Origin: Streptomyces griseus subsp. griseus
GTDB taxonomy: Bacteria; Actinomycetota; Actinomycetes; Streptomycetales; Streptomycetaceae
Assembly (NCBI RefSeq): GCF_003610995.1
Contig: NZ_CP032543.1
Location: forward strand, 868,001 to 932,000
Reading direction: 5' to 3'
DNA: 64,000 nt
Shown here one piece after another: positions 8,143 through 37,047 of this stretch. Under the pieces are notes generated by a model, which was not told where the DNA came from, did not search any database, and saw only the letters and a list, made by a program, of their open reading frames with translations. Each line of letters begins with the position of its first letter. The stretch's first letter is position 1. The position numbers were made by a program, and so were the translations under genes.

Positions 8143-8229
8143 AGTTCTCAAGGAACGGACGCTTCCTTCGGTCCCGTATCACCGGGGCCCTCCGGGCGCT
8201 TCCCTTCGTGTTTCTTTGTCTTGCTGTCC

Positions 8230-8390
8230 TGCGTTTCTGACTCTATCAGACTCTTTCGTGTCCGATTCCCGGTCGAAGCGGGTCAAGCGGTTTTGCTTAT
8301 TTCTGCTTCCAGGTAATTCGCTTTCGCGTCTTTCCCTTTCGGCGAGTCCGACTCTATCAGGCCTTTTCTGCTTCCTTGACCACGTCCCGC
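8230..8390 (-). promoter_or_regulatory. rRNA operon promoter region
   Basis: This AT-richer stretch lies 285-445 bp upstream of 16S. On the minus strand it contains two copies of TGATAGAGTC whose TAGAGT (8240-8245 and 8351-8356) fits the -10 of HrdB-type promoters. TTGACC occurs at 8281-8286 but not at ideal spacing, so start points cannot be assigned. Tandem rRNA promoters are normal in Streptomyces. The rest of 7946-8520 is leader sequence with no gene. Confidence 0.55.
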
Positions 8391-8526
8391 GGGCATGCCG
8401 AAGGAGGGCTAAGGGTTAGGATCTGGGCTTAAAGGTCGCCGCCGACCCCCGACTCAAAGTCGCGTTGGGGTCAGGCAGGAGTACGACAGTACAGGCCGCC
8501 GGGGATCGAGGCAAATCGCTTGCGGT

Positions 8527-8542
8527 GTACCCCTAGACCTGT
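8527..8542. promoter_or_regulatory. DasR-type operator (dre-like) upstream of crr
   Basis: GTACCCCTAGACCTGT keeps the right half of the dre consensus ACTGGTCTAGACCAGT (CTAGACC then GT) but not the left half. It lies 120 bp before crr. DasR control of crr-ptsI by GlcN-6-P/GlcNAc-6-P is established in S. coelicolor; this particular site is inferred. Confidence 0.45.
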
Positions 8543-8661
8543 CAACCGGGCGGTCTCGGGCGGAACCGGGACTTCATATGACTTACTCTGCTGAGCAGTA
8601 CGCCGTCCCCACATCAGCCGCGGCGGCGACACCTGAATCTCCACCCCCTGGGAGGCTCCCC

Positions 8662-9111
8662 ATGACCAACGTGACGTCCCCTCTCGCTGGACGCGCCATC
8701 GGACTCACCGCGGTTCCCGACCCGGTCTTCTCCGGCGCGATGGTCGGTCCCGGCACCGCCATCGACCCCGTACGCGAGCCCTCCGAGGCCGTATCGCCTG
8801 TCGACGGCATCGTCGTCTCCCTGCACCCCCACGCGTTCGTCGTCGTCGACGCCGACGGGCACGGGGTTCTGACGCACCTCGGTATCGACACCGTCCAGCT
8901 GAACGGCGAGGGCTTCGAGCTGCTCGTCAACAAGGGGGACACGGTGACCCGGGGCCAGAGCATCGTGCGCTGGGACCCGGTCGGCGTCGAGGCGGCCGGC
9001 AAGTCACCCATCTGCCCGATCGTTGCCCTGGAGGCCACCGCCGAGTCGCTCTCCGAGGTCCGTGAGGACGGGGACGTGAAGGTCGGCGACACGCTGTTCG
9101 GCTGGCAGTGA
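8662..9111 (+). CDS. crr: PTS system glucose-type EIIA component
   Basis: 149 aa cytoplasmic phosphocarrier that takes phosphate from HPr and passes it to sugar-specific EIIB domains. The phosphorylated histidine is H72 in LTHLGIDTVQL (E. coli H90); H57 in LHPHAF corresponds to the second active-site His. The start ATG at 8662 has GGGAGG at 8650-8655 and gives the length I recall for SCO1390. An in-frame upstream ATG at 8578 has no comparable ribosome site and would add an unusual Ala/Pro-rich leader. It is followed by ptsI after 76 bp. Confidence 0.95.
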   Translation: MTNVTSPLAGRAIGLTAVPDPVFSGAMVGPGTAIDPVREPSEAVSPVDGIVVSLHPHAFVVVDADGHGVLTHLGIDTVQLNGEGFELLVNKGDTVTRGQSIVRWDPVGVEAAGKSPICPIVALEATAESLSEVREDGDVKVGDTLFGWQ

Positions 9112-9187
9112 CACCTCGGACGCAGTGACAGGCCAGTTGCACAACCACCGCGGCGACACGGTCGCCGCACAACCGGAGACGGGTGAA

Positions 9188-10858
9188 ATGGAGACAACGC
9201 TGCGAGGCGTCGGCGTGAGCCACGGTGTGGCCATCGGCGAGGTTCGGCACATGGGTACGGCGGTGCTGGAGCCGCCCGCCAAATCGATTCCCACCGAGGA
9301 GGCGGGGCGCGAACAGGGGCGTGCCCGGCAGGCGGTGGAGGCCGTGGCCGCCGATCTCGTCGCGCGCGGCAACCTGGCGGGCGGCGAGGCACAGCACGTG
9401 CTCGAGGCGCAGGCCATGATGGCGCAGGACCCCGAGCTGATGTCCGATGTCGAGCGGCGGATCGCCGTGGGCAGCACCGCCGAGCGCGCGGTGTACGACG
9501 CGTTCGCCGCGTACCGGGCGCTGCTGGCCAACGCCGGTGAGTACCTGGCGGGGCGGGTCGCCGACCTGGACGACGTACGGAACCGGATCGTGGCGCGGCT
9601 GCTCGGTGTACCGATGCCCGGGGTGCCGGACAGCGACGAGCCGTACGTCCTGATCGCGCGCGACCTGGCGCCGGCCGACACGGCGCTTCTCGACCCGACC
9701 CTGGTGCTCGGTTTCGTCACCGAGGAGGGCGGGCCGACCAGCCACAGCGCCATCCTGGCCCGGGCGCTCGGCGTTCCGGCCGTGGTGGCTCTGCCCGGCG
9801 CCGGTGAGCTGGCCGAGGGCACGGTCGTGGCGGTGGACGGCAGCACCGGCGAGATCTTCGTCGACCCGAGCGCGGAGAAGCGCGCGGAGATGGAGGCCGC
9901 CGCGGCTGCTCGTAAGGCCGCACTGTCCTCCTCCACCGGTCCGGGTGCCACTTCGGACGGGCACAAGGTGCCGCTGCTGGCCAATGTCGGCGGTCCGGGC
10001 GATGTGCCCGCGGCGGTCGAGGCGGGGGCCGAGGGTGTCGGGCTGTTCCGCACCGAGTTCCTCTTCCTGGACGACAGCAAGCAGGCTCCTTCCGAGGAGA
10101 AGCAGGTCGAGGCCTACCGAGCGGTGCTGGAGGCGTTCCCCGAGGGGCGTGTCGTCGTACGCGTACTGGACGCCGGTGCCGACAAGCCGCTGGACTTCCT
10201 GACGCCGGCCGACGAGCCGAACCCGGCGCTCGGTGTGCGGGGGCTGCGCAGCCTGCTGGACCACCCCGAGGTGCTGCGTACCCAGCTGACCGCGCTGGCG
10301 AAGGCCGCCGAGGGTCTGCCGGTGTACCTGGAGGTCATGGCGCCCATGGTGGCCGACCGCATCGACGCCAAGGCGTTCGCGGACGCGTGCCGTGAGGCGG
10401 GGCTGCAGGCGAAGTTCGGCGCGATGGTGGAGATTCCGTCCGCCGCTCTGCGGGCGCGGTCGATCCTCCAGGAGGTGGAGTTCCTGTCGCTGGGCACCAA
10501 CGACCTGGCGCAGTACACCTTCGCGGCCGACCGTCAGGTGGGCGCGGTGTCGCGGCTCCAGGACCCGTGGCAGCCGGCGCTGCTCGATCTGGTCGCGCTG
10601 TCCGCCGAGGCGGCCCGTGCCGAGGGCAAGAGCTGTGGTGTCTGTGGTGAGGCCGCCGCGGATCCGCTGCTGGCCTGTGTGCTGACCGGTCTGGGCGTCA
10701 CCTCGCTCTCCATGGGTGCCGCGTCCATCCCCTATGTGCGCGCCACGCTGGCCAAGTACACGCTGGCCCAGTGCGAGCGTGCGGCCAACGCCGCCCGTTC
10801 GGCCGACTCCGCCGACGAGGCGCGCAGCGCGGCTCAGGCGGTGCTGTCCGGCGAGTAG
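9188..10858 (+). CDS. ptsI: Phosphoenolpyruvate-protein phosphotransferase (PTS enzyme I)
   Basis: 556 aa. It autophosphorylates from PEP and phosphorylates HPr, the first step of the sugar PTS. The active-site histidine is H186 in GGPTSHSAILARALG. The PEP-binding barrel shows FLFLDD, LGTNDLAQYTF and the catalytic cysteine motif SCGVCGEAAAD near 480. The start at 9188 (METTLRGVGVSHG) matches the usual length; a longer reading from 9125 adds 21 non-conserved residues. It forms an operon with crr and ends at a strong hairpin. Confidence 0.96.
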   Translation: METTLRGVGVSHGVAIGEVRHMGTAVLEPPAKSIPTEEAGREQGRARQAVEAVAADLVARGNLAGGEAQHVLEAQAMMAQDPELMSDVERRIAVGSTAERAVYDAFAAYRALLANAGEYLAGRVADLDDVRNRIVARLLGVPMPGVPDSDEPYVLIARDLAPADTALLDPTLVLGFVTEEGGPTSHSAILARALGVPAVVALPGAGELAEGTVVAVDGSTGEIFVDPSAEKRAEMEAAAAARKAALSSSTGPGATSDGHKVPLLANVGGPGDVPAAVEAGAEGVGLFRTEFLFLDDSKQAPSEEKQVEAYRAVLEAFPEGRVVVRVLDAGADKPLDFLTPADEPNPALGVRGLRSLLDHPEVLRTQLTALAKAAEGLPVYLEVMAPMVADRIDAKAFADACREAGLQAKFGAMVEIPSAALRARSILQEVEFLSLGTNDLAQYTFAADRQVGAVSRLQDPWQPALLDLVALSAEAARAEGKSCGVCGEAAADPLLACVLTGLGVTSLSMGAASIPYVRATLAKYTLAQCERAANAARSADSADEARSAAQAVLSGE

Positions 10859-10877
10859 TCGCGGCGAGCCGGCTGTC

Positions 10878-10913
10878 GGAGGGGCTTCCCGCCTGGTGGC
10901 GGGGAGCCCCTCC
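10878..10913 (+). terminator. crr-ptsI terminator
   Basis: 16-bp inverted repeat (10878-10893 and 10898-10913, one G:U pair) with a 4-nt loop, 20 bp after the ptsI stop. It may act in both directions because the next gene is convergent. Confidence 0.8.
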
Positions 10914-10927
10914 TGCTGTGTGTCCGG

Positions 10928-11872
10928 TCAGCGGTGGGGTTCCGCCGGGTCGGCTCCGATGTCGAACCCCGCGCAATACTCCACGCCGGATTCCGGGGAG
11001 ACGGGCTCCCCGGTGTCGGCGTCGGTGCAGTAGGCGTTGAAGACCTCGCCGGCGGTGAGCGGGGCGAGGGCTCCGTGGGTCAGCCGCCAGCCGTGGACGC
11101 GGTCGGGGCTGTCGGGGGTGCTGGTGCGGAGCACCACTCCCCCGGGTGTCTCCAGGGCGATCGCCACCGCGAGCACGGTGGCGAACTCCGCTCCTTCCGA
11201 GGCGTCGAGGCGAACCGGGCCCGTGGCGTCGCGGTGGGTGTGGAGCACTGCCAGGAGCTGGTCGTTATCCGTCGGGGTGGAGCAGACCAGGTGGTGGGTG
11301 CCCGGTCCGGCCGTCTCCAGCAGGCGCGTCAGAAGGTGGGAAGCCCGGTCGAAGGCCGCTCGTCCGATGTCCTGGCCGCAGTCCGCGCAGGCTCCGAGGT
11401 CGGCGAGGAGAAGGGTGGCGTACTCCCAGGTGGCCTGGCGGACCGCGCGGGAGACCAGGAGCGGGATGAGGTCGGTGAGGCGTTGGCCGGTGTAGGCGAT
11501 CGTGGCTCCGGCGGCGGCGATCTCGGCGGTGAAGCGGCTGCGGCTGGCGCCGGTGTCCGCGTCGAGTCCGGACTCCGCGCAGAACTCGGCGTAGTCCTCG
11601 GGGTCGAAGAGCGCCACCGTGGTGTGCATGCCCTGGGCGGTCATGGACTTGAGCAGGCCTTCGACCTGGTGCAGATAGGCGGCGTGGTCGTCGAAGGGGA
11701 AGGTGCGGTAGCGCCGCATGGCCGCGAAGTCCTGCTCGTCGACCAGGAGGCCGACGGTGCTGGGGGCTTCGCGGCGCAGTGTGCGACGCAGGGTTGTGCT
11801 CGCGGTGCCGTGTTTCGGGCTGCGTTTGGTGTTCGGCTTGATGGTGCGCTTGGTGTTTTCCTGCTGCGCCAT
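10928..11872 (-). CDS. Hypothetical protein, roughly 314 aa
   Basis: I do not recognise a family. The N-terminus is basic and Lys/Thr-rich (MAQQENTKRTIKPNTKRSPK), followed by a soluble alpha/beta-looking body with GLLVDEQDF near 40 and a CADCGQDIG cysteine pair near 165. There is no signal peptide or membrane helix. ATG at 11872 is preceded by an AGGGGGA ribosome site; an upstream ATG at 11905 is possible. It lies 63 bp downstream of the acetoacetyl-CoA synthetase on the same strand and may be cotranscribed. Confidence 0.8.
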   Translation of the reverse strand: MAQQENTKRTIKPNTKRSPKHGTASTTLRRTLRREAPSTVGLLVDEQDFAAMRRYRTFPFDDHAAYLHQVEGLLKSMTAQGMHTTVALFDPEDYAEFCAESGLDADTGASRSRFTAEIAAAGATIAYTGQRLTDLIPLLVSRAVRQATWEYATLLLADLGACADCGQDIGRAAFDRASHLLTRLLETAGPGTHHLVCSTPTDNDQLLAVLHTHRDATGPVRLDASEGAEFATVLAVAIALETPGGVVLRTSTPDSPDRVHGWRLTHGALAPLTAGEVFNAYCTDADTGEPVSPESGVEYCAGFDIGADPAEPHR

Positions 11873-20421: not shown

Positions 20422-21030
20422 TCAGGTGGCGACGGGCTGGCGGTCCCGCGCCGCACGCTCCAGGGCGTGTTCGACCACCGCGACCAGGACGTCACGTACC
20501 GAGGACCGGTCCCGTGCGTCGCACAGCAGCACCGCGACCTCGGGGTCGAGATCGAGCGCGGCCCGCACCGTCTCGGCGGGGAACTTCCCCGCGTCCTCGA
20601 AGCAGTTGACGGCCACCGCGAACGGGATCCGGCGGCGTTCGAAGTAGTCGACCGCGGCGAAGCAGTCCTCCAGACGCCGGGTGTCGGCGAGGACGACCGC
20701 GCCCAGGGCGCCCTGCGCCAGCTCGTCCCAGAGGAACCAGAAGCGGTCCTGGCCCGGTGTGCCGAAGAGGTAGAGGACCAGGTCCTCGCGGAGCGTGATC
20801 CGGCCGAAGTCCATGGCGACCGTGGTGGTGGTCTTGGACTCGACCCCCTCCAGATCGTCCACCGGGCGGCCCGCCTCGCTCAGGCGCTCCTCGGTACGCA
20901 GCGGTCTGATCTCGCTGACCGCGCCGACCGCGGTCGTCTTGCCGACGCCGAACCCTCCCGCCACCAGGATCTTCAGGGTGACGGGCTCGACGGGCCGCTG
21001 CTTGGCGCGGCTAGAGCGCCCGAAGGCCAT
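20422..21030 (-). CDS. cvnD: Conservon GTPase-like protein CvnD
   Basis: 202 aa small G-protein-like ATP/GTP-binding protein. The P-loop is VAGGFGVGKTT (about 27-37), switch region TTTTVAMDFG, and DxxG-like motif FGTPGQDRFWFL; the NKxD position reads VNCFE, as in this family. It is the last gene of a cvnA-B-C-D conservon and overlaps cvnC by 20 bp. Conservon products assemble into membrane complexes affecting development and antibiotic production in S. coelicolor. The conservon number cannot be assigned from sequence alone. Confidence 0.92.
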   Translation of the reverse strand: MAFGRSSRAKQRPVEPVTLKILVAGGFGVGKTTAVGAVSEIRPLRTEERLSEAGRPVDDLEGVESKTTTTVAMDFGRITLREDLVLYLFGTPGQDRFWFLWDELAQGALGAVVLADTRRLEDCFAAVDYFERRRIPFAVAVNCFEDAGKFPAETVRAALDLDPEVAVLLCDARDRSSVRDVLVAVVEHALERAARDRQPVAT

Positions 21031-21493
21031 TGATTACCTCGCGAAGAATGTTCACGTCCGGCAGCTCGGCCGGCGGAACGGGACGGGTGACGTGCACCAG
21101 CTCGTCCTCGACGAGATCGCCGACCAGGACCCGTACCACCCCTACCGGGAGATCGAGTTCGGCGGCGAGCTCGGCGATCGACTGGGGCATGTCGCTGCAG
21201 AGTTCGACGATCGTGACGTGTTCGGGCGCGAGCGTCTGGTCCCGGCCGGGGTCCTCGGCGGCCGGTTCGGGCACGACGAGGGCGATCAGGTCCAGCCGGT
21301 GCCGGGAGGCGCTGCTGGTGCGCCCCCGGGTCATGGCGTACGGGCGGACCACCGGCCCGGCCTCCGCGTCGTACCACCGCGAGGACTGGGGGTCTGCGGT
21401 CGCGTCCGGGGATCCGGGGCCGGTGACCCCGGGTCCTGCGGATCCGGGGTCCGTGGGTCCGGGGTTCGTGCCCCGGGGGGAGTCAGCGCTCAT
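21011..21493 (-). CDS. cvnC: Conservon DUF742 protein CvnC
   Basis: 160 aa. A Pro/Gly-rich N-terminal tail (about 1-40) leads into the DUF742 core: VVRPYAMTRGRT, a winged-helix-like LDLPVGVVRVLVGDLVEDEL and terminal PDVNILREVINGLRAL. Cytoplasmic component of the conservon, 9 bp downstream of cvnB and overlapping cvnD. Confidence 0.92.
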   Translation of the reverse strand: MSADSPRGTNPGPTDPGSAGPGVTGPGSPDATADPQSSRWYDAEAGPVVRPYAMTRGRTSSASRHRLDLIALVVPEPAAEDPGRDQTLAPEHVTIVELCSDMPQSIAELAAELDLPVGVVRVLVGDLVEDELVHVTRPVPPAELPDVNILREVINGLRAL

Positions 21494-21502
21494 GCCCGGC
21501 CC

Positions 21503-21946
21503 TCACCCTCCGGCGGGCAGACCGGTCGTCCGTGGGGCGTTGGCCAGGTGGGCCCCCACGCGCTTGACCATCAGCGTCATCTCGTACGCCACCTGGCCCA
21601 CGTCGGAGTCCGCGTCGGCCAGGACGGCGAGACAGCTGCCGTCCCCGGCCGCCGTCACGAAGAGGAACGCCTCATCCAGCTCGACGACGGTCTGGCGCAC
21701 CCGGCCGGCGTCGAAGTGGCGTCCCACGCCCTTGGCGAGGCTGTGGAACCCGGAGGCGACGGCGGCCAGATGCTCGCTGTCCTCCCGGGTCAGGTCCTGT
21801 GAGGTGCCGGTGGCGAGCCCGTCGCTGGAGAGCACCAGCGCCTTGCGGATGCTGGCGACGCGCTGGACGAGTTCGTCAAGCAGCCAGTTGAGCTCGCCCG
21901 AGCCGTGGCGTGCGGGGTTGGGTGCTGCGGCGTTCGGTGCGGTCAT
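21503..21946 (-). CDS. cvnB: Conservon roadblock/LC7 protein CvnB
   Basis: 147 aa roadblock/LC7 fold, with ELNWLLDELVQRV at the N-terminus and ALVLSSDGLATG. These proteins bind and regulate the small GTPase partner (CvnD), in the manner of the MglB-MglA pair. It overlaps cvnA by four bases (ATGA), implying coupled translation. Confidence 0.93.
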   Translation of the reverse strand: MTAPNAAAPNPARHGSGELNWLLDELVQRVASIRKALVLSSDGLATGTSQDLTREDSEHLAAVASGFHSLAKGVGRHFDAGRVRQTVVELDEAFLFVTAAGDGSCLAVLADADSDVGQVAYEMTLMVKRVGAHLANAPRTTGLPAGG

Positions 21947-24906
21947 CGACCGTCCCCTCCCGGAGTGGTTCCTGGTGCTGTTCCCTCGGGGCCGGCAGCG
22001 TCGTGTGCGTCCTCGGCGTTCTGCCGACGACCGCGCTGCCAGCCGCGCTGGAGTGAGGCCATGCGGTTGCGTACTTCGTCCGCGTCCCGGTCGTAGTCGT
22101 CGACCTTGTCGGCGGGCGCCCGGTGCGGAGCCCGGTCGGCGGACTCCTCGCGGAGCTGGTGGGCGAGGCTGGCCTGCCGGACCCGCCGGGGCAGACCGCC
22201 CACGGTGTCGGGGGCGGCCGGCGCCTGAGGGCTCTCGGGGCGCGCCTCGGTGGTGCGGGGTGGTTCAGGGGTGCGGGGTGGTTCGGTGGTGCTGAGCGGG
22301 GCGGGCCTGCGGTGTGCGGCGCGGGCGGCCCAGGGGGTGGTGTGCGCGACCGGGCCGGTCGGGGTGCGGGGTGCGGTCGTGGGCGGCTCGGCGGCGGTGG
22401 CGGCCTCCGGGTCCCGGTCGTCCACGCGGCGGCCCCGGTCGGTGACCAGGGTCGGCGGTGTACGGCGCGGCAGCGGTGCCGGGCGCATCGGGCGGACGTC
22501 GGCGGTGAGGCCCTCGCCGTGGTCGCGGGCCTGCTGGTGCTGTTCACGGTCGGTGGCCCGGTGGGCGTCACCGGCGTCGCCCCGGCGCGCCTTGCCGTCG
22601 TCCGCCCGGCGCCGGTCCCGGCCGTCGTCACCGCGCGGGTCCCGGCCGTCGTCGCGGCGCAGGTCGCGGGCGCGGAAGATGCCGCCGCGCTCGCTCTCGG
22701 TGTCTTCCAGGTCGGATACGCCGTCGAGTACGGGACCCAGGGCCGGATCGAGGGCCGGGTCCGAGGCGCGGTCCAGCGGGTCGCCGGCCAGGTCCAGGGG
22801 GCCGACCGGGCCCTCCAGCTCGACCGGGCCGTCGAGGACCGCCGGTCCGGTGAGCCCGGTGGGGACCGGGGAGAGGACGGCGGAGCGGCCGTTGACCCGG
22901 CGGTCGCCTCCGGGGGTGTTGCCCGCGGGCGGGGCGTCGCCGTCGGTGCGGCCGCTGCCGATCGCCCGCTCGGCGCGGCGGTCGAGGCGGAAGCCGGTGC
23001 CGTGGGTGTCCGGGGCGTCGGTGAGGAGGGCGGCCGGGATGAACACGACCGCCGTGGTGCCTCCGTACGGCGATTTCTGCAGGGAGACCCGGACGTTCTG
23101 GCGCTGGGCGAGCCGGCTGACCACGAAGAGGCCGAGGCGGTCGGTGTCGGAGAGCTCGAAGTCGGGGGTCTCGGCGAGCCTCAGGTTGGCGTCGAGGAGG
23201 ACCTCGGGGGGCATGCCGAGGCCGCGGTCGTGGATTTCGAGGGTGAAGCCGTTGGAGACGCGTTCGCCGTGCACCTGGACCGCGGTGTGCGGGGGTGAGA
23301 AGACGGTGGCGTTCTCCAGGAGTTCGGCGATGAGGTGGGTGAGGTCGGCGACGGCGGGGCCGCCCACGCCGATCCGGGGCAGCCGCCGGACCTCGATGCG
23401 TTCGTAGTCCTCGACCTCGGCGACGGCGGCCCGCACCACGTCCATGAGCTGGATGGGCTTGCGCCACTGGCGGGAAGGGGCGGCACCGGAGAGGATCACG
23501 AGCCCTTCGGCATGGCGCCGCATCCGGGTGGTGAGGTGGTCCAGGCGGAACAGGTCGGCCAGCTCGTCGCTGTTCTCGGTGCGGCGCTCCATGGTGTCCA
23601 GGAGCGTCAGCTGGCGGTGGAGGAGGACCTGGTTGCGGCGGGCGAGGTTGACGAAGACCTCGGAGACGCCGCGCCGCATGTCCGCCTGCTTGACCGCGGC
23701 CTCGACGGCGGCGCGCTGGAGGGTGTTGAGCGCCTGGCCGACCTGGCCGATCTCGTCGCGCTCGTAGGTGAGGTGCGGGGCCTCGGTCTCGACGTCGACC
23801 TGTTCGCCCGCGGCCAGCCTGCGCATGACGCTCGGGAGGCGTACCCCGGAGACCTCGTGGGCGTCCTTGCGGAGCCGGGAGAGGTCGCGGACGAGCTCGC
23901 GGCCGATGCGTACGGAGACGAAGATCGAGACGATCAGGGCCAGGAAGCCGAGGACCCCGGCTATACCGGCCTGGGCGAGGACCCGGTGGCCGACCGGTTC
24001 CGCGCGGTCCTGGAAGCGGTCGCCCATCTCCGTGGAGTCGTCGGCCAGCCGGTCGAGGACGGGCGGGGCCGCCTGCTGCCAGCGCTCGGTGTCGACGGCG
24101 CCGGGGCGCTTGGTGGGCCCGGCGGCGATCAGGGTGTCCTCGGCGGTGCGCAGCGGTTCGGCGTCCGGGCTGCTCCAGAACTGCTCCACGCGGCGGCGTT
24201 CGGTGGCGGGGAGGTTTTCGAGACTGATGTCGTAGAGGAGCCGGCGCTGGGCCACCAGTCCGGATATCTGGCGGAGTTCGGCGGTGGTGAAGCGGCCCGC
24301 GATGAGGCCCGATGCGACCAGCGCGTCCTCGCGCGACAGCATCTCGCGGGCCCGGGATATCCCGACCAGCGCCCGCATCTGCTTGTCCATCGACCCGTTC
24401 TCCGTGGTGTGGAGACCGTTGAGGAAGCGGTACGCGGGGTCGACGAGGCCGTTGTAGAAGTCCAGCGCCTTCGCCCGGCCGATGGTGCGCTTCTCGACCG
24501 ATTCGCGCAGGGAGCCCAGGCCGTCGACGGCGCTCAGGATCGCGTCGAGACGGGTGCGGGCCTCGGTGTCGAGTGCCTCGCGGACGTCGTTCTGCCGGGC
24601 GCTGTCCCTGACCTGCGCCACGATCCGGTCGGTGTCGGCGCGTTGGCTCAGCAGGAGCGGCAGGGCGTCGGAGGCGCGGGGGTCGGCCAGGAAGACCAGG
24701 GTCTGGCGTCGTTCGGCCTGGACGACCCGGACCGCTTCCTCCAGGGGGCCGGCGACCTTGTCGACGGTGGTGCTGACGCTCATCAGCTCGCTCGCCTGGC
24801 GGCCGGTGACGTAGGTGGCGAGGACCCAGAGGCCCGTGAGGGAGACGAGCGGCACCAGCAGCAACGCCACGATCTTCCTGCGGATGGACTTCCCGCGAAA
24901 GCGCAT
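21943..24906 (-). CDS. cvnA: Conservon sensor histidine kinase-like protein CvnA
   Basis: 987 aa membrane sensor. In order: TM1 (VALLLVPLVSLTGLWVLATY), a nitrate/nitrite-sensing-like extracytoplasmic domain (about 45-320), TM2 (VLAQAGIAGVLGFLALIV), HAMP, a degenerate dimerisation region (FRLDHLTTRMRRHAEGLVIL), and an HATPase_c domain with N-box ELLENATVFSPP, G1 DRGLGM and G2 GLFVVSRLA. The last 300 residues are disordered and rich in Pro, Arg and Asp. No response regulator is adjacent, as usual for conservons. ATG at 24906 has GGGGGAGG upstream; a longer reading from 25065 is unlikely. Confidence 0.92.
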   Translation of the reverse strand: MRFRGKSIRRKIVALLLVPLVSLTGLWVLATYVTGRQASELMSVSTTVDKVAGPLEEAVRVVQAERRQTLVFLADPRASDALPLLLSQRADTDRIVAQVRDSARQNDVREALDTEARTRLDAILSAVDGLGSLRESVEKRTIGRAKALDFYNGLVDPAYRFLNGLHTTENGSMDKQMRALVGISRAREMLSREDALVASGLIAGRFTTAELRQISGLVAQRRLLYDISLENLPATERRRVEQFWSSPDAEPLRTAEDTLIAAGPTKRPGAVDTERWQQAAPPVLDRLADDSTEMGDRFQDRAEPVGHRVLAQAGIAGVLGFLALIVSIFVSVRIGRELVRDLSRLRKDAHEVSGVRLPSVMRRLAAGEQVDVETEAPHLTYERDEIGQVGQALNTLQRAAVEAAVKQADMRRGVSEVFVNLARRNQVLLHRQLTLLDTMERRTENSDELADLFRLDHLTTRMRRHAEGLVILSGAAPSRQWRKPIQLMDVVRAAVAEVEDYERIEVRRLPRIGVGGPAVADLTHLIAELLENATVFSPPHTAVQVHGERVSNGFTLEIHDRGLGMPPEVLLDANLRLAETPDFELSDTDRLGLFVVSRLAQRQNVRVSLQKSPYGGTTAVVFIPAALLTDAPDTHGTGFRLDRRAERAIGSGRTDGDAPPAGNTPGGDRRVNGRSAVLSPVPTGLTGPAVLDGPVELEGPVGPLDLAGDPLDRASDPALDPALGPVLDGVSDLEDTESERGGIFRARDLRRDDGRDPRGDDGRDRRRADDGKARRGDAGDAHRATDREQHQQARDHGEGLTADVRPMRPAPLPRRTPPTLVTDRGRRVDDRDPEAATAAEPPTTAPRTPTGPVAHTTPWAARAAHRRPAPLSTTEPPRTPEPPRTTEARPESPQAPAAPDTVGGLPRRVRQASLAHQLREESADRAPHRAPADKVDDYDRDADEVRNRMASLQRGWQRGRRQNAEDAHDAAGPEGTAPGTTPGGDGR

Positions 24907-25414
24907 GGCCTCCCCCAGATCGGCCCCGCACCGCGGGGGTGGTCTTCTCCCGGTCGTCCCTCGGCCCTGCCCCGACGTTCGCCGTCCGTACACCGGCGCG
25001 CATCGGACCATCGGGGGCGAGGGTCCGTCCTGCGTCAATAAACGGCGCGAGCCTACTACTGACACCGAGACAACTCGAAGGCACGTCCGGATGATTTTCG
25101 GCCGTCCGGCCAGGCTTTGATCATGAGTTGTCCCGGTATTCCCGGAGATGAAATTCGCGAAAGCGACAGAGGATCCCCACCGATCCCTTGAGTTCGAGCC
25201 CGGATCAGTTGGCTGGAATTATTCGATCCATAGCGTTCTGGGGCCGAGAGGCCGCTTTCAGCGGGAATCTTCGGAGCGGGTGGTTCGTCCATATGTACGG
25301 GGTAGACGCAGGGCGGGGGCGTGCGCGGCGGTACGGAGTCCATCCGCCAGCGTAGAACCGGCGCGAGCCGGGCAGCCACCCTGGAGTCGGACAGTGGTGG
25401 GGAGTTGAAGGACC
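24907..25414. other. Intergenic region between cvnA and a divergent small membrane-protein gene
   Basis: About 500 bp with no convincing gene. The middle part (25050-25260) is AT-richer and should hold promoters for the divergent transcription units. I could not place a clear -35/-10 pair. Confidence 0.5.
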
Positions 25415-25888
25415 TTGAGCACGCAGGAGCGCGGGAGCGCCGGAGCACCGGTCGGCACCGCGAGAGCGGGCGCCGCGGACGGGGCGCGGGTTCCGCGGCA
25501 GTTGTGGGTGGAGGAGCCGGCCAGGAAGCGGCGGATGCCCGACGCGGTGCGGACGGCCGCGGTGCGGGCCGTTCTCGTCATGTCGCTGACGATCATCCAG
25601 GCGATGGTCGCCTTCCTGAGCACGTTGACCGGCTCCTGGCTGGCCTTCCCGATGGTGCTCAGCAGTGTGGCGAGCACGGTGGTCGCCACCTGGGCGGTGC
25701 TGGACGTCTGGGTCACCCGGCAGGTGTGGAACCAGCGGTACGGCGTGGTGTCCGAGCCGAGCAGCACCGCCCGGCAGATGCGCCGGGAGCGGCGGCGGGC
25801 CCAGCGGGCGGCGCGGGCGGCCGAGCGGGACGAGGCGGGCGGCAGGATACGCGGCCGCCGGAGCGCCGGCGATCTCTCCCGGGCGTGA
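25415..25888 (+). CDS. Small membrane protein of unknown function
   Basis: 157 aa, start TTG at 25415 behind GGGGAG. Two hydrophobic helices (about 52-70 and 76-98: AVLVMSLTIIQAMVAFLSTL and SWLAFPMVLSSVASTVVATW) are followed by a very basic C-terminal tail (RQMRRERRRAQRAARAAER). The fold suggests a helical hairpin anchor with a tail that may bind nucleic acid or acidic lipid. It lies between the conservon (divergent) and the condensin-like operon (convergent); no family recognised. Confidence 0.7.
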   Translation: MSTQERGSAGAPVGTARAGAADGARVPRQLWVEEPARKRRMPDAVRTAAVRAVLVMSLTIIQAMVAFLSTLTGSWLAFPMVLSSVASTVVATWAVLDVWVTRQVWNQRYGVVSEPSSTARQMRRERRRAQRAARAAERDEAGGRIRGRRSAGDLSRA

Positions 25889-25983: not shown

Positions 25984-28900
25984 TCAAGCCTCCGGCTGCG
26001 GCTCCGCGGTCTGCTGGGTGCTCCGCTTGAACATGCGGGTCGCCGTGATCTCGCCGTGGACCGTCTCGCCCTCCGGGTCCTGCTGCGGCAGCCCGGGGCG
26101 CAGGTGCTCCTCCACGCTGATGTATTTCAGCCCGGCCCTCAGGTCCGCGTCGTTGCGCAGCCGGATGACGAGGGGGAATTCGGCGAGCGCGGTCGTGTCG
26201 AAGAGGCCGGTCGTGTAGAGCAGCTGCACGCCGAGCGCGTCGGAGACCGCGCGCTGGAGCTCCAGCAGATACGTGGCGTTGGCCCGCCCGATCGGGTTGT
26301 CCAGGAACAGGGTGCCCGCGTGCCGGTGGCGGTCGCGGCCCCGGTCGTTGCTGCGCAGCGCCGCCATCGTGCAGTAGAGGGCGATGGCGGCGGTGAGGAG
26401 CTGGCCGCCGGAGAAGACGTCGCCCATCTGTCCGACCGGGACCCGCTCGGCGCGGAGCACGGCGTCCGGTTTGAGGATCTCCACCGCGATGCCCTTGGGT
26501 CGCAGCGCCGCCTCGACACCCCGCAGCAGCAGGGACATGCCGTCCCGGCGCAGGTCGGAGTTCTTCTTGAGGGCGGCGTGCGTCGCCTCGTCGATGACCT
26601 CGCCGAGACGTTCGGTGAGAGTCGCCTGGTCGGGCTCCTCGAAGCGGATCCGGAGGAACTCCTGCCCCGACCACTCCCCCAGCCCCTCGGGGAGCTGGGA
26701 GAGCCGCTGCGCCGAGCGGAGCGTGGCGAGCGCCGACTCGACCAGGCCGCGCAGCCGGTCGACGATGGAGTCGCGGTTGCGCTCCAGCTGGACCAGCTCG
26801 TCGGTCAGGACGCGCAGCCGGGGCGCGAAGGCGTCGGCCCACTTCTGGGCGTGCTCGGGCAGCGCGGACGCGGGCAGTTCGCGGATCTGCTGGCGGGCGG
26901 GGGTGCGGACCTGCTCGTAGCGGGTGGAGTTGGCGTGCCGTACGAGGATGTCGCTCGCCTCCCGCACGGCGCTCTCGGCGGCCGAGAGGTCGGTGGAGCA
27001 GCCGCGCAGGGAGCGGCGGGCCTCGGCGGCGGACCGGCGGGCCTCCTCCAAGGTGCCGGGGTACGGATCGGGGCCTTCGGTGCCGTCCTCCGTACCGTGG
27101 TCGCGGAGCAGGTCGCGCAGGAGGGCCGCTGTCTCGTCGAAGCCGCCCGCCGAGTCCTCGGCGGTGCGGTGGGCGTGGAGAAGCTCGCTGTGGGCGGCGC
27201 GGGCGGTGTCCAACGCGGCGGTGGCGGCGGCCAGTTCACCGGTGGCCGTGCGCAGGAACGCCTGGGCCTGCTCGGCGTCGGCCGGGACCAGCTCCTCGGG
27301 CAGCTCGGTGTGGTGCGGTCGCTCGTCGTCGGGGGCGAGCCGCTCGGCCTCGCCACGGAACCGGCCCAGCTGCTCGCTGGCGGTGGAGGCCCGGGTCTCC
27401 AGCAGCTGTACGTGGGATTCGGCGCGGGCCGCCGCTGCCTGGCGGGAGGGTCCGTCGGCTCCGTCGGTGCCTTCGAGGAGCTGGGCGGCGCGGGTGCGGA
27501 CCTTGTTGGTGAGGCGGTCCAGCTCGGCGAGGGCAGCGCTCTCATCGCTCTCGGCGCGGGCCTGTTCGGCGCGCAGGTCGGCGCCGACGCCGACCTTCTC
27601 GTACAGCTGGGAGGCGGCCCGGTAGGCCTCGCGCAGGGTGGGCAGCGCGGTGCGGGGCTTGGTCCCGTCGGGCTCCGGGAGGACCTCCGGGGCTCCGGCG
27701 ATCTCCGCGCGCTCGGCGCGCAGGGCGCGGGCGGTGCGGCGGGCGTCGTCCCCGGCGCGCTGGGCGGCCCGGCGGTCCTCGTCGGCGGAGCGGGCCAGGT
27801 CGAGGCAGACGGCGGCGCGGGCCTCGGACTCGGCGGCCTCGTCGACCAGTTCGCGCAGCCGGACCTGCCAGCGGGCCCGCTCCCGCAGCCGGTGGGCGAG
27901 CCCGGCCAGCGCGTCGGCGACCCGGCGGGCGCGCTGGGCGGCTTCCTGGCTCTCCTCGCGGACCCGGGCGGTCTCGGCGGCGGCCTCGTCGGCCTCGGCG
28001 AGGGCGGTGCGGGCCTCGGCGAGGGCGGCTTCGGCGCTCTCGGCGACCGTACGGGCGGTGGCGGCGGCCTCGGCCAGCTCGGCGAGCATGCCGGGCGGGC
28101 AGTCGGCGCGCCAGGAGGCGATGCGGGAGGCGAGGGCACGGTCGCCCGAGAGGCGGGCGGCGAGCGCGCGGATGTCCTCGTCCCGGGCGGCGGCGCGGGA
28201 GCGCAGGGCGTGGCGCTCCTCGTCGGCGGCGTGCTCGTCGTGCATGGCCGGGTTCGGCGGGACCAGGAAGACACCGTCGTGCTGGGCGTCGGAGCCGGTG
28301 GCCGGGTCCGGGACGGGGGCAAGGAGGGCGGCCGCGGTACCGACGGCGACGGCCGAGCGGGGCAGCAGGGCCGCGCTGCCGAGGACTTCGCGGGCGCGGG
28401 TGTGGGCGTCGGGGTCGGTGATGACAACGCCGTCGACCAGCTCCGGGCGGGCGGCGAGGACGGCGGCGTGGTCGGCCGGGTCGACGGCCTGGGCGAGATA
28501 GCGCCAGCCGGGCAGGGCGGGGATGCCGTGCTCGCCCAGATACTCCACGGTCGCCAGGACGTCGGGGCCGGGCGGCAGCAGCCCGCCCTCGCCGAGGGCG
28601 CCGAGGATGCGGGAGTCGTCGGCCGCCGCGGTGCGCAGGTCGAAGAGGCGGCGCTCGGCGGCGGTGACGGACTGGTCGAGGAGGTCGCGCAGCTCGTCGG
28701 CGCTGCGGTCGAACTCCTTGGCGGTGAGCGGCTGATGGGCCGAGCCGGGCTGGTCGGCGAGGGCGACCGCCCCCTCCGGGGCGGTCTCGGTGGCGGTGCC
28801 GTCGCCCTGGGGGCCGGTGCGGGCAGTGTCCCGCTGTGCCCCGCCCGCCGTCTCCCCGGCCGCCCCCCGGCGGGGGTGCGGGACGCCGGTGCCGGAGGGC

Positions 28901-30738
28901 AGGCCGAGCAGGTCGGCGAGGCGCGGGTCGGCCGCGATGGACTCGGCGGCCCTCAGCTCGTCCTCGTGACCCTGCTCCGCCGCCTTGGCTCCATCGGCGG
29001 CACGCGCGGCGGCCAGCTCGGCGCGGCTCTCGGCGGCCGCCGCCTCACGGGCGTGGTCGGCGGCGGTGCGGGCGGCCTCGCGGGCGGTGTCCCAGGCGGC
29101 GACGGCGGACTGTTCGGCGTCGCTGGCGGCCAGAGCGGCGCGGGCCGGGTCGGCGTCGGGCTCGGTGTTGTCCAGCCAGCCGGCCTGGACCGCCTCGGTG
29201 GTCTCCTGCTCCACCTCGGCGAGGCGCTGGCGCAGATGGCCGGCCTCGCTGCGGGCGCGCTGGGCCTCGGTGGCGGCGACGGTGGCGTCGCGGTGGGCGC
29301 GCTCGCCGGTGTCCTGGAGGGTGTCGGAGCGCTCCTCCTGCTCGTTGGCGACGCGCTCGCCGTCCTCGGCCGCCGTGTGCAGCGCCCGTACGAGGTCGGC
29401 GGCGGCGGTGGCGCGGGCGGCGAGGGCGGGGGCGGCGTCGCGCTCGGCCTCGCGGATGGCGACGGCGACCCGGGCGGAGCGGTCGGCGGCGGCGCGGTGG
29501 CGCAGGACGGCTTCGGCGGCCTGCCAGGCGGCGTGCAGGGTGCGGGCCTCGGCCAGCTCCTTGCGTCCGGCGGCGGCGCTCTTCTCGGCTCCGGCCAAGG
29601 CCAGGGAGGCGTGGCGGTAGGCGAGTTCGGCGGCGATGAGGGAGCGGTGACCTCGAGTGGACTCGGCCTCGGTGACGGTGTGGGCGGCGGCGGTGACCCG
29701 CTCGGCCAGCTCGGCGGTGCGGCCGCGCTCCTCGGCGGCGCGGGCGCTCAGCCGGCGGGCCAGGGTGCGGGTGCGGCGCTCGGCGGCGGCGTGGATGTCG
29801 CGGGTGCGGGCGCGGATCCCGGTGGCCTCGACGATCCGGTTGAGCAGCTCCACCGAGCCCGCGGTGAAGTCGCGTTCGGCGGTCAGCTCGGCGCGGCGGC
29901 CCAGCTTGTTGCCGAAGCCGCTGACCAGGTCGGCCAGTCCGTCGGTGTCGCGGGTGTCGGTGACGGCGCGGAGCAGCAGGTCGGTGAAGTCGGAGTCCTT
30001 CTTGACCGCGAAGAGCCCGGCGGCCTCACCCTCGTCGGCGTTCATCTCGCGCTGGTAGCGGAAGAGTTCGGGGTCGAGTCCGAGGTCGCCGAGGTGTTCG
30101 TTCCAGCGGTCGTGGATCTCTTCCCAGTGGACGTCGAGGTGCTGGTAGAACTTGCCCGCGTCCACCAGGGCGTCGCGGAACCCCTTCATGGTGCGGCGCC
30201 TGCCACGGGCTCCGGAGACCCCATCGGCCGGGCGGCCGACGGCGGTGGCCTCCGCGACGGGCAGGCTGTCCAGGCTGAGCCCGGGCCCGGGCCGGAACGA
30301 GTACCACGCCTCCGCGAACTTCCGCGGGTCGTTGGAGACCTGCCGCCCCCGCCACTCGCTGACCTTGCCCACCACGACGCACTCACCGGTCAGCGTGTGC
30401 TGCCACTCCAGGGCGACATGGCCGCAGTCGTCGGCGAGCAGGAACTTGCGGAGCACGCCGGAGCTGGCGCCGCCGAGGGTGTTGCGGTGGCCCGGGAGCA
30501 TCACCGAGAAGATCAGCTTGAGCAGGACGGACTTGCCGCCGCCGTTCTCCAGGAAGAGCACGCCCGCCGGGGCGGGGCGGCGCGGCGGTCCGACCGGCTC
30601 TTCCTCGAAGAACTCCGCCTGGGCGGGCGCCGGGTCGGGGACGGGCTCACCGACGCCGCGCAGGTCGAGGACGGTGTCGGCGTAGCGCGCACCGGCAGGC
30701 CCGATGGAGTAGAGGCGGACCCGGGACAACTCGTACAT
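25984..30738 (-). CDS. SMC-like (MukB/MksB/JetC-type) coiled-coil ATPase
   Basis: 1,584 aa. The head halves lie at the two ends of the chain: Walker A LFLENGGGKSVLLK at 61-74, ABC signature FSGGQ at 1442-1446 and Walker B TLFLDNPIGRAN at 1476-1487. Two long Ala/Glu/Arg-rich coiled-coil arms (about 330-640 and 850-1400) flank a globular hinge-like middle (about 640-830, including LPGWRYLAQAVDP and VDGVVITDPDAH). This is the architecture of condensin ATPases. The position after the Walker B Asp is Asn instead of the catalytic Glu. It is the last gene of a trio with a wHTH protein and a kleisin-like protein upstream (58-bp gap). Start MYELSRVRLYSIG. Probable role in DNA loop or plasmid control; a specific function is not established. 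Confidence 0.85.
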   Translation of the reverse strand: MYELSRVRLYSIGPAGARYADTVLDLRGVGEPVPDPAPAQAEFFEEEPVGPPRRPAPAGVLFLENGGGKSVLLKLIFSVMLPGHRNTLGGASSGVLRKFLLADDCGHVALEWQHTLTGECVVVGKVSEWRGRQVSNDPRKFAEAWYSFRPGPGLSLDSLPVAEATAVGRPADGVSGARGRRRTMKGFRDALVDAGKFYQHLDVHWEEIHDRWNEHLGDLGLDPELFRYQREMNADEGEAAGLFAVKKDSDFTDLLLRAVTDTRDTDGLADLVSGFGNKLGRRAELTAERDFTAGSVELLNRIVEATGIRARTRDIHAAAERRTRTLARRLSARAAEERGRTAELAERVTAAAHTVTEAESTRGHRSLIAAELAYRHASLALAGAEKSAAAGRKELAEARTLHAAWQAAEAVLRHRAAADRSARVAVAIREAERDAAPALAARATAAADLVRALHTAAEDGERVANEQEERSDTLQDTGERAHRDATVAATEAQRARSEAGHLRQRLAEVEQETTEAVQAGWLDNTEPDADPARAALAASDAEQSAVAAWDTAREAARTAADHAREAAAAESRAELAAARAADGAKAAEQGHEDELRAAESIAADPRLADLLGLPSGTGVPHPRRGAAGETAGGAQRDTARTGPQGDGTATETAPEGAVALADQPGSAHQPLTAKEFDRSADELRDLLDQSVTAAERRLFDLRTAAADDSRILGALGEGGLLPPGPDVLATVEYLGEHGIPALPGWRYLAQAVDPADHAAVLAARPELVDGVVITDPDAHTRAREVLGSAALLPRSAVAVGTAAALLAPVPDPATGSDAQHDGVFLVPPNPAMHDEHAADEERHALRSRAAARDEDIRALAARLSGDRALASRIASWRADCPPGMLAELAEAAATARTVAESAEAALAEARTALAEADEAAAETARVREESQEAAQRARRVADALAGLAHRLRERARWQVRLRELVDEAAESEARAAVCLDLARSADEDRRAAQRAGDDARRTARALRAERAEIAGAPEVLPEPDGTKPRTALPTLREAYRAASQLYEKVGVGADLRAEQARAESDESAALAELDRLTNKVRTRAAQLLEGTDGADGPSRQAAAARAESHVQLLETRASTASEQLGRFRGEAERLAPDDERPHHTELPEELVPADAEQAQAFLRTATGELAAATAALDTARAAHSELLHAHRTAEDSAGGFDETAALLRDLLRDHGTEDGTEGPDPYPGTLEEARRSAAEARRSLRGCSTDLSAAESAVREASDILVRHANSTRYEQVRTPARQQIRELPASALPEHAQKWADAFAPRLRVLTDELVQLERNRDSIVDRLRGLVESALATLRSAQRLSQLPEGLGEWSGQEFLRIRFEEPDQATLTERLGEVIDEATHAALKKNSDLRRDGMSLLLRGVEAALRPKGIAVEILKPDAVLRAERVPVGQMGDVFSGGQLLTAAIALYCTMAALRSNDRGRDRHRHAGTLFLDNPIGRANATYLLELQRAVSDALGVQLLYTTGLFDTTALAEFPLVIRLRNDADLRAGLKYISVEEHLRPGLPQQDPEGETVHGEITATRMFKRSTQQTAEPQPEA

Positions 30739-30796
30739 GGCGGCGGACTCTCGTCGTTCGGAGAAGCGGTGGTGGTGCTGGGCGGTGCGGGCGGGG

Positions 30797-31765
30797 TCAG
30801 GAGGAGTGGAAGGGCAGGCCCGCGTCGGCGGCCAGCTCCAGGTCGTCGGGGTCGGACGGCGGCAGCAGGGTGGCGGAGCCGTCGGTGACGGGGACGACCC
30901 CCAGCTCCAGCAGCTCGGCCATGGCGGCGCTGCCCGCCATGTCGCGGACCTGGAGCTGGTAGCGGGCGGTGGTGCGGTAGGCGCCGCCCGCGTCGTCGCC
31001 GGTGCGCTGGAGGAAGCCGGATTCGGTGAGGAAGGCGACGGCCTTGCCGATGATGCCGGTGGTGGATCCGGCGAGGCGGCGGGCGTCCTTGGTGGCCCCG
31101 GTGGAGCTGCGCCGGGCGTAGACGCGCCAGCCGGATTCGAGGCCGGGGGCGTCGGTGGCGGGGTCGGTGTTGTCGCCCTGCTCCTCGGCGCGCTCCTCGA
31201 GACGCCGGCAGGCCTGGCGCACGAAGGCGTCGACACCGTTGACCGTGATGCGGCCGATGTAGGCGTCGTCGGCGAGGTCCTCGGGGCGGGGGAAGGCGAG
31301 GGCGGCGACGGCCAGATGGGCGAGGCCGTGGAGGAAGCGGTCGGCGGCGTCGGAGGAGGCGCGGCGGGCGTAGTCGCCCATGCGGACGGCGAAGACGGAG
31401 TCCTCGCCCGCCGTGACGGCCATCCCGGCGCGCGGGGAGACCTCCAGGACGATGAGGCCGAGCCCGGTGGCGACGGCGTCGGCGAGCCGGGCGAAGGCGC
31501 TCTCCTCCCGGTAGCGGCGGAGCAGGTCGGCGTATTCGGCGTCACGGGCGGGCAGCAGCTTGGGCTGGAGCCCGAAGGAGACCAGCCGGGCGGCGTCGGC
31601 GGCGTCGGCCGGGGTGACGGAGCCCTGGCCGGTGGGCTCGGCGGTGTGCGGCTGCGTGGCGTCGCCCGCGTACGCCGTGGAGGAGCCCGCGTACGTCGTC
31701 GAGGAGGCGGCGTACGCGGAGGGCTCGGTCCACGCGTCGGGGTGCTCGGCGTCGTGGTCGCTCAC
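30797..31765 (-). CDS. MukE/MksE/JetB-like winged-helix partner of the SMC-like ATPase
   Basis: 322 aa, GTG start at 31765 with AGGAG at 31774-31778. The N-terminal 50 residues are low-complexity with Tyr-Ala-Gly repeats (TYAGSSTAYAGD). The body is alpha-helical with winged-helix-like segments: GKAVAFLTESGFLQRTGDD and YRTTARYQLQVRDMAGSAAM. Position between the kleisin-like and SMC-like genes and size match the E/JetB subunit of MukBEF/Wadjet-type complexes. Assignment is by context and architecture, not by a diagnostic motif. Confidence 0.65.
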   Translation of the reverse strand: MSDHDAEHPDAWTEPSAYAASSTTYAGSSTAYAGDATQPHTAEPTGQGSVTPADAADAARLVSFGLQPKLLPARDAEYADLLRRYREESAFARLADAVATGLGLIVLEVSPRAGMAVTAGEDSVFAVRMGDYARRASSDAADRFLHGLAHLAVAALAFPRPEDLADDAYIGRITVNGVDAFVRQACRRLEERAEEQGDNTDPATDAPGLESGWRVYARRSSTGATKDARRLAGSTTGIIGKAVAFLTESGFLQRTGDDAGGAYRTTARYQLQVRDMAGSAAMAELLELGVVPVTDGSATLLPPSDPDDLELAADAGLPFHSS

Positions 31766-31820
31766 GGCTGGGACTCCTCGGTACGGGACAGGTGGGGGTG
31801 CGCGGGACGGACGGGGCCGG

Positions 31821-33346
31821 TCATGAGGCCTCCTTGCGGTCCGCGGCCATTCCGGCGGCGTCCAGCAGGGCGGTGCCCACGATGAGGTCGGCGCCGCCGA
31901 ACTCGGGGTCGTCCAGCTCGGTGCCGTCGTCCACCGCGAACAGCAGGCGGCGCTCGCCCTGGCGGTAGGCGGTGCCGACCGGCGGGCTGGCCGCGTGGAC
32001 GGCGAGCAGGGCGACCAGGTAGGGCAGCTCGGAGTCGCTGCGGCGGGCCTCGGCGAGCAGCCCGGAGAGTCTGCGCGGGGCGTCGTGCTCCAGGTCGAGA
32101 AGGGCCATGGCGCTGCTCAGCTGGGCGTCGCTGAAGCGGCTGTCGTCCGGCGTGGCGATCAGCTCCGGCTCGGGCATCTCCATACCGAGGTGCTCCCGCT
32201 CCAGCGGCGGGGTCAGCAGCATGTCGACGAGGTCGCCGACGCGGACCGAGGTGGGGGTGCGCAGGCCGGTGCCGTGGGTGAAGAAGGCGTCGGTGGCGCG
32301 GGTGGACTGTTCGACGGGGAGCGGGAGGAGCGGGGCGAGGAGCTGCCCGTACAGATCGAGGCCCGCGTGGGCGGTCGGGGTGGCGAACGCCTGCCGGTCC
32401 TGCTCGGCGCGGAAGAGCGGCCCGGCCTCCAGCAGCCGGGACTGGAGCTGGGTGTGGCGGCGGATGCAGTCCTTGACGATGTCGACCAGCTCGGCGGCCC
32501 GGCGCTTGCGCTCGGGGTCCTCGGCCTCGTCGCGCGCCTTGCGGATGTTGGTGAGGATCGCGTTCTCGTGGCGGTAGCGGTCGGCCACATGGTCCAGGGC
32601 TTCGGCGATCATGTCCGGGACGGTGGTGAGCCAGTCGACCGCGCGGACGTTGCGCCGGGTGGCCTCCAGGGTGCGGCGCAGCGTCTCGGCGTACTGCACG
32701 GTCCGGTAGCGGGCCTGTTCGGCGGCGAGCTGGGCGTCGGCGAGACGGCCCCGGCTGATCAGGACCTCCAGCTTGACCTCGGCGGCGATCTGGGCGCTGG
32801 TGACATCGGTGTCCAGGGCGCCGACGAGGACGTTGACCGCTTCGTCGGTGGCGCGGAGGTAGACCGTGCCGCCGTAGCCGGGGACCTCCTCGATCAGCTT
32901 GAAGTCGTAGTCCCGGCGGACGTAGACGCCGTCGGGGCCGAAGGTGCCGTAGACCGCGCGGAAGCCGCGGTCTACGCTGCCGACGTTGATCAGGTTCTCC
33001 AGGACCCAGCGGGCGACCCGTTCGTGCTCGGCGACCGGGCGGTCGGGGGCCTGGGCGCCGACGCGGGGCAGCAGCCTGGCCACTATCTGGTCGTGGTCGG
33101 CACCGGTGTCGAAGTCCATGTTGAGCGTGACGTGGTCGATCGCCGCGAGAGCCACCTCCGCCATGGCGTAGACCGTGTACTCACCGGCCAGATTCGCCTT
33201 GCGCACATCGAGGTCGTGCAGCGGGGCCGTGCACGCCAGCGCGCGCAGCCGCCGCGAGAGCCCCTCGTCGGCGGCCGGGCCCGGGCAGGCCTCGGCCCCG
33301 CGCTGAGCTGCGGCGCAGCGTTTTCCGTGTCGGCAGGCGAAGTCAC
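31821..33346 (-). CDS. Kleisin-like (MukF/MksF/JetA-type) subunit, apparent N-terminal frameshift
   Basis: The open frame from GTG 33206 gives 461 aa, but readable sequence (SRRLRALACTAPLHDLDVRK) continues upstream in frame with no start codon. A GTG at 33346 in the neighbouring frame (VTSPADTENAAPQLSAG) lies 7 nt after a -10-like TAATCT and would be leaderless. Adding one base to the G4 run (plus-strand CCCC 33296-33299) fuses the two. The protein is helical with YAMAEVALAAIDHVTLNMDF near the start, a long helical middle with AEDPERKRRAAELVDIVKDC and an acidic C-terminal part. First gene of the condensin-like trio; kleisin role is inferred from gene order and architecture. Confidence 0.65.

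Positions 33347-33451: not shown

Positions 33452-37047
<3,596 letters not shown>

Follow-up and report, generated by a model that had tools for sequence, protein, structure and literature searches.

We analysed a stretch of 64,000 nucleotides from Streptomyces griseus subsp. griseus (contig NZ_CP032543.1, positions 868,001 to 932,000; hereafter the window, whose own numbering is used unless a locus is named). On its minus strand, between 25984 and 33346, lie a jetA-like, a jetB-like and a jetC-like gene, in this order and with intergenic gaps of 55 and 58 bp, which encode kleisin-, KITE- and SMC-like proteins, respectively. An earlier note, made from the sequence alone, had described them as a stand-alone condensin-like operon in the order F-E-B (JetA-JetB-JetC) without a JetD/MksG nuclease. 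Here, we report that the trio belongs by its proteins to Wadjet type III, that it occurs without JetD in nearly all Streptomyces, and that it may well serve as a second chromosomal condensin.

The operon and the identity of its products

Profile scans matched JetC with PADLOC JetC3 (PDLC00588, E 0, 1398 bits) and JetA with PADLOC JetA3 (PDLC00567, 627 bits). No profile of Pfam, NCBIfam or PADLOC matched the protein encoded between them. PADLOC likewise had no match for JetB of L071 and L074, two loci with a complete JetABCD, and in best local alignments the JetB-like protein agreed at 48-58% with JetB of the JetD-bearing loci L137-L140. Thus, the gene order proposed earlier was borne out, and of the components expected of Wadjet type III, JetC3, JetA3 and a JetB subunit were found in the trio, whereas JetD was not. 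The reading of the third gene as an ATPase with a split head, two arms and a hinge-like centre also agreed with its open reading frame (ORF) and motifs: Walker A (ENGGGKS) lies within JetC residues 57-76, the signature FSGGQ starts at residue 1442 and Walker B (LFLDN) at residue 1477, while the hinge-like centre was judged by eye from composition. These three motifs were identical in 15/15 core loci, as we call the JetD-less loci of the Streptomyces type, and the DN at Walker B was present also in the 19/19 JetD-bearing JetC proteins compared.

Structure models were used to examine the two smaller proteins. The JetA model gave two Foldseek matches at E <0.001, both of them chains of MukBEF structures with the length of MukF, and in its VIA-align rows MukEF and MukBEF chains stood on top, followed by JetABC chains; the JetB model gave no Foldseek match at E <0.001. 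With moderate confidence, the predicted fold of JetA is kleisin-like and that of JetB KITE-like, so that neither small protein fell outside the folds expected of a condensin. Sequence searches of JetC, JetA and JetB (one protein or profile each) against solved structures returned nothing meaningful. Pfam and NCBIfam both hold Muk models, and no match to the MukB, MukE or MukF families was found in either at E<=1; an assignment to MukBEF or another annotated family was rejected, since there was no weighty match in Pfam, NCBIfam or PHROG. The earlier note had also named a place in the DNA-repair Rad50/SbcC clade, with different partners, as an outcome that would speak against its reading. This was rejected, as the 1584 residues of JetC hold no CxxC zinc hook, and its operon partners are kleisin-like and KITE-like. 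Public names in the 120 listed homologue rows were 'hypothetical protein', 'membrane protein', 'DUF3375' and similar.

The jetA gene is frame-broken in this assembly. Its likely start, GTG 33346, is common to L002, L004, L048 and L050, the four in-register relatives on whose alignment this judgement rests, and it is out of frame with the jetA body because one base is missing in a C-run near 33285, where the window is one base shorter than these relatives and than L077 (98% in JetA). If translation began at 33206, the first conserved residues would be lost. The roughly 500-aa helical protein of the earlier note therefore holds as a kleisin-like JetA homologue, but not as a single ORF. In the neighbouring oxoprolinase gene, a one-base gap was found at 36262 relative to L077, which has a single 1199-aa ORF there, and the only gap in jetC relative to L077 was an in-frame one of 6 bases. 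The breaks in jetA and the oxoprolinase gene together suggest that the assembly contains indel errors, probably from GC-rich homopolymers; a real mutation is possible. The jetA region is open, with no inner stop, in nearly all relatives in the genus listing, so jetA is normally intact.

Table 1. Genes of the trio and its flanks, in window positions.
Feature	Position	Strand	Remarks
jetA-like (kleisin / MukF-like)	31821..33346	-	start GTG 33346 judged from relatives
jetA-like, continuous in-frame body	31821-33206	-	461 aa from first usable start codon
jetB-like (KITE / MukE-like)	30797..31765	-	start GTG, 322 aa
jetC-like (SMC-like ATPase)	25984..30738	-	start ATG, 1584 aa
Convergent 157-aa ORF with hydrophobic stretches (flank, outside the system)	25415..25888	+	ORF reading
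Hydantoinase/oxoprolinase (upstream flank, outside the system)	33452..37047	-	two ORFs here; Pfam PF05378, PF01968, PF02538

Absence of JetD and distribution of the trio

To our profile searches with JetD_C (PF09983) and JetD3 (PDLC00594), the genome of the window returned 0 matches, and the window had no match to a hidden Markov model (HMM) made with the sequences of 17 JetD proteins. The same HMM had 0 matches in 73 loci (the window, 14 family loci and 58 named Streptomyces/Kitasatospora core loci), while it matched 35 other loci, 17 of them its sources. JetD was absent from all 62 core loci with a full-length jetC (47 named, 14 family and the window), which upholds the claim that the operon has no JetD/MksG, as far as one can be recognised. 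In JetD-bearing loci jetD comes directly after jetC, and the room behind jetC was at least 3 kb in 61 of these 62 core loci and 1.8 kb in L089. In L089, jetB and a full-length jetC are separated by a stretch (6546-11801) of about 5 kb in which four ORFs were called, possibly an insertion that spared the operon. As for the other named core loci, 8 end at a contig end, and L205, L221 and L226 end soon after jetA. Six further loci without an HMM match (L072, L073, L151, L155, L157 and L162) are truncated by a contig end or seem degraded; one of them, L157, is a Streptomyces locus of the JetD-bearing type that has jetA and jetB and no jetC or jetD in the next 9 kb, a Wadjet remnant. Two suspicions were dropped. 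JetD matches at 39-55% in some core and Amycolatopsis loci came from over-long query ORFs overlapping jetC in another frame, and the clean HMM found none; what looked like a JetC-JetD fusion in L256 (3848-9334) is a single long ORF only because the jetC end there is read in a different frame, by assembly error or a broken gene.

Within the genus, JetD_C was found in 29/242 genomes and JetD3 in 34/242, of which 19 were strong (above 170 bits), so that most carriers of the trio have neither recognisable kind of JetD. All 19 strong JetD3 loci were fetched. A complete JetABC stood beside JetD in 16 of them; in L135 the end of jetC alone is present, jetC of L136 is split over two ORFs, and in L138 jetA is missing at a contig end. 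Strong JetD3 adjoined the core copy in 0/19, and 17 of the 19 genomes had a second JetA place. The 0/19 indicates that, in this genus, Wadjet III with its nuclease is a system of its own that occurs occasionally. JetD matches occurred as mirror pairs near both contig ends in G150, G089, G128 and G048; the terminal inverted repeats of linear chromosomes may thus be a site of nuclease-bearing Wadjet-like systems.

Genome-wide presence of the trio was counted by JetA and JetB homologues. JetA was found in 240/246 genus genomes (238 at E<1e-200, with weaker matches in G080 and G120), at a single place in 218 of the 240, and in 237/239 of the more complete genomes; JetB was found in 232/242. Across the family, JetA was present in 198/200 genomes (196 at E<1e-200; 193/194 of the good ones) and in 17/17 genera, one of them by a weak match only. 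The order gave 106/119, made up of 104/104 in the genus and 2/15 outside the family at 44 and 33% identity, and the phylum sample gave 17/396, with 12 in the genus and 5 outside it at 27-41%. No relatives were found in the phage collection, and the 4 plasmid records that held any were all below 60% identity, the best being JetABCD on a Rhodococcus linear plasmid (L149). JetA of this plasmid is 54% identical to that of the Streptomyces core; here, a plasmid carries an anti-plasmid system.

These counts bear on whether the trio still acts in defence without cleavage, by loading on plasmids, integrative and conjugative elements or circularised phage DNA and compacting or silencing them, as human Smc5/6 is said to do on viral episomes. 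Descent from an anti-plasmid system and intact ATPase motifs would agree with such silencing. However, defence systems are usually patchy, whereas the trio is in nearly all sampled family genomes; it is absent from the phage collection and known from those 4 plasmid records only, ordinary metabolic genes are often its neighbours, and the parts of the Wadjet literature that were searched gave no description of silencing by a JetD-less Wadjet. We therefore hold silencing to be unlikely.

A second JetD-less group, sequence constraint and surroundings

The JetD HMM also had no match in five named loci outside the family, Amycolatopsis L169, L213, L216 and L222 and Actinophytocola L215, and JetA aligned at 59-62% in four of them. 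In the family of the Amycolatopsis azurea genome, 49/150 genomes had a match, 43 of them at 54-64%. Twenty loci were fetched there; 19 fell in the Amycolatopsis group, 15 without JetD and 4 with it (L256, L266, L267 and L269), and L271 is another JetD-bearing lineage outside that group. With the five named loci included, 20/24 of the Amycolatopsis group have no JetD. A. azurea has JetD3 elsewhere, beside a second JetA; the other four named genomes gave two marginal JetD3 matches and two none.

A tree of JetA+B+C (15 core and 19 JetD-bearing loci) separated the core at 100% ultrafast bootstrap, and trees drawn by midpoint or outgroup placed the trio among JetD-bearing relatives. When the second group was added, FastTree placed a Streptomyces-type clade beside a mixed clade of JetD-bearing and JetD-less Amycolatopsis-type loci together with the JetD-bearing L137, L139 and L140, and an unfinished IQ-TREE run agreed with this topology. 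A JetA+JetB tree of 35 rows required at least 3 changes of JetD state. A single JetD-less clade was rejected by the approximately unbiased (AU) test, with p 1e-12, or 1.4e-4 without L268 (quick trees). JetD was therefore probably lost at least twice; two or more losses are the simplest reading of these sequences, with regain possible.

Conserved residues were compared between 9 Streptomyces-type JetC proteins and their JetD-bearing relatives. Sites conserved in JetD-bearing proteins and changed in the Streptomyces type numbered 17 in JetC, 1 in JetA and 2 in JetB. The changed JetC sites include residues 22, 59, 84, 123, 252 and 1304, and 14/17 lie before 260 or after 1300; 16/17 mostly keep the JetD-bearing residue in the JetD-less proteins of the Amycolatopsis type. 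A common loss of JetD-contact residues was not seen in JetA, where 1 site differs.

The flanks seen by the earlier note, a convergent small membrane gene and the oxoprolinase, are both there, the latter itself broken into two ORFs. Past the membrane ORF, at 20422-25065, lies a conservon-like cluster of a NIT-domain histidine kinase, a small protein, a DUF742 protein and a GTPase-like protein. Oxoprolinase-type genes and a conservon of histidine kinase, DUF742 and GTPase are frequent neighbours in the Streptomyces group, gap and pgk in the Amycolatopsis group (the gap, pgk and pxpA-like neighbours were named by eye); flanks vary between genera of the Streptomyces-type group as well. The conservon kinase family was found near the trio in 19/35 Streptomyces-type loci, and the family of the 157-aa ORF near jetC in 19/35 Streptomyces-type and 0/20 Amycolatopsis-type loci. 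Among the 25 largest neighbour families, JetA, JetB and JetC alone were common to both JetD-less groups; the simple gene caller undercounts JetB here (23/35 and 6/20). Within these 25 families, a partner that replaces JetD in both groups was accordingly rejected.

These comparisons also address a defence that still cuts, in which an unlinked and unrecognised nuclease would replace JetD in trans. JetA and JetB do keep nearly all the positions conserved in JetD-bearing relatives, in contrast to JetC, which speaks for this reading. Yet neither JetD_C nor JetD3 occurs in the genome of the window, in a search limited to JetD kinds, most carriers elsewhere are equally without a recognisable JetD, and the 25 largest neighbour families include no fourth one shared by both JetD-less groups. 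A nuclease in trans is thus quite improbable.

In 21 core gene comparisons omega was 0.06-0.37, similar to that of JetD-bearing pairs. For the L079 and L080 rows, jetC omega was 0.16 and 0.32 (the stretch upstream of jetC excluded). A decaying, functionless Wadjet remnant, as might be supposed from the missing JetD and the frame-broken jetA of this assembly, is hardly credible in view of an omega well below 1 in 21/21 comparisons, the near-universal presence, the invariant motifs and a jetC of full length in 47/58 named core loci (contig ends truncate 8 of the others).

On contigs above 6 Mb holding L001-L040, the locus lay 8-20% from the contig end in 18/19, and at 2.7% in one; these large contigs mostly belong to the nearest relatives. 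ScpA, the kleisin of ordinary SMC-ScpAB, was found at C1:1294501 of the same genome. The earlier statement that the trio exists in addition to SMC-ScpAB is upheld as far as ScpA, the one component searched.

Proposed function and comparison with known systems

Taken together, these results lead us to favour, with somewhat more confidence than doubt, a condensin that derives from Wadjet III, lacks JetD, is under purifying selection and most likely acts on the chromosome beside SMC-ScpAB. The operon would make a JetABC complex with JetC as ATPase motor, JetA as kleisin and JetB as KITE subunit. It would descend from a Wadjet type III plasmid-defence system, JetD having probably been lost before the common ancestor of Streptomycetaceae. 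The complex may bind DNA and extrude loops by ATP hydrolysis, as other Wadjet motors do, and the end of extrusion would bring no cut without JetD. Removal of JetD would thus leave a loop-extruding motor, a second chromosomal condensin beside SMC-ScpAB, which could compact or disentangle chromosomes, perhaps in multi-genome hyphae and during sporulation. A chromosomal role of this kind fits the near-universal retention of a trio that has no nuclease, which suggests a defence weapon turned household chromosome organiser. That Actinobacteria turned a plasmid-killing SMC system into a chromosomal condensin on at least two occasions through loss of JetD, at the root of Streptomycetaceae and once or more in the Amycolatopsis group, is in our judgement evenly balanced.

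Several points weigh against a chromosomal condensin of this origin. The JetA match is absent in 6/246 genus genomes and the JetB match in 10/242, most, not all, of them fragmented or incomplete. The kleisin-like and KITE-like fold models are moderate (predicted local distance difference test, pLDDT, 69 and 65). If the frame break in jetA is real, this strain may be without a JetA of full length. The root of the trees, drawn by midpoint or outgroup, is unproven and long branches are present, so that JetD loss rather than later gain is what we infer; the chromosomal function of the trio is inferred as well. Nor is a fixed chromosomal place the rule: in the nearest relatives the locus is subterminal, and in some other single-contig genomes it lies deep inside (G109, 4.95/9.9 Mb; G006, 3.4/10.0; G117, 2.7/8.4; G136, 3.2/8.2; G243, 5.2/8.1), which may reflect rotated assemblies or rearrangements. 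Finally, the nuclease-bearing MksBEFG of Corynebacterium glutamicum is reported (PMC7083940) to have no role in chromosome folding; condensin shape alone is thus no proof of chromosomal work.

In the Wadjet/MksBEF literature searched in one library, no description of a core JetD-less JetABC of Streptomyces was found in the portions available, and a term search of the main text of a 2026 paper on Streptomyces SMC (PMC13121528) returned no passage on a second Streptomyces condensin. If true, a second condensin in nearly all Streptomyces would alter how chromosome folding and deletion phenotypes in the genus are read, and Streptomycetaceae would have an all but universal, unstudied organiser beside SMC-ScpAB. 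How Wadjet is related in evolution to the other SMC complexes is, according to PMC10586767, not resolved. With JetD-bearing and JetD-less sister lineages in related, tractable bacteria, the switch from defence to housekeeping becomes directly testable. Defence surveys that use JetA3/JetC3 profiles alone could count the core complex as defence; according to PMC10482375, Wadjet is enriched in Actinobacteria and towards Streptomyces chromosome ends.

The trio shares with Wadjet type III the JetA3/JetC3 profiles, a JetB homologue, the order A-B-C and the DN at Walker B, and differs from it in two ways: JetD is missing from the locus and not recognisable elsewhere in the genome, and the trio is near-universal in the family rather than occasional. 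Its nearest JetD-bearing relatives are Streptomyces L137-L140, the four such loci of the Amycolatopsis group and the Rhodococcus linear plasmid. With MukBEF, whose gene order is F-E-B, it shares this order and the MukF-like kleisin and MukE-like KITE folds; it differs in having no Muk family match and in coexisting with ScpA. PMC10586767 describes MksBEF of Pseudomonas aeruginosa as a contributor to chromosome organisation that likely originated when JetD was lost. Both are condensin trios without a nuclease, a likeness of composition with no sequences compared, and the Streptomyces trio differs in falling in the JetA3/JetC3 profiles. The earlier proposal of a chromosomal MksBEF-like complex is therefore kept for its near-universal, nuclease-free retention and amended in affiliation to Wadjet III. 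MksBEFG/EptABCD of Corynebacterium and Mycobacterium, likewise actinobacterial Wadjet relatives, carry the nuclease (PMC10586767 and PMC10123090), and in our profile search C. glutamicum gave a JetD_C match, while the genome of the window gave none. In Wadjet, circular DNA is extruded by JetABC and cut by JetD once extrusion is complete (PMC12647877 and PMC10586767); the Streptomyces complex is Wadjet III-derived, yet lacks the JetD that Wadjet membership calls for.

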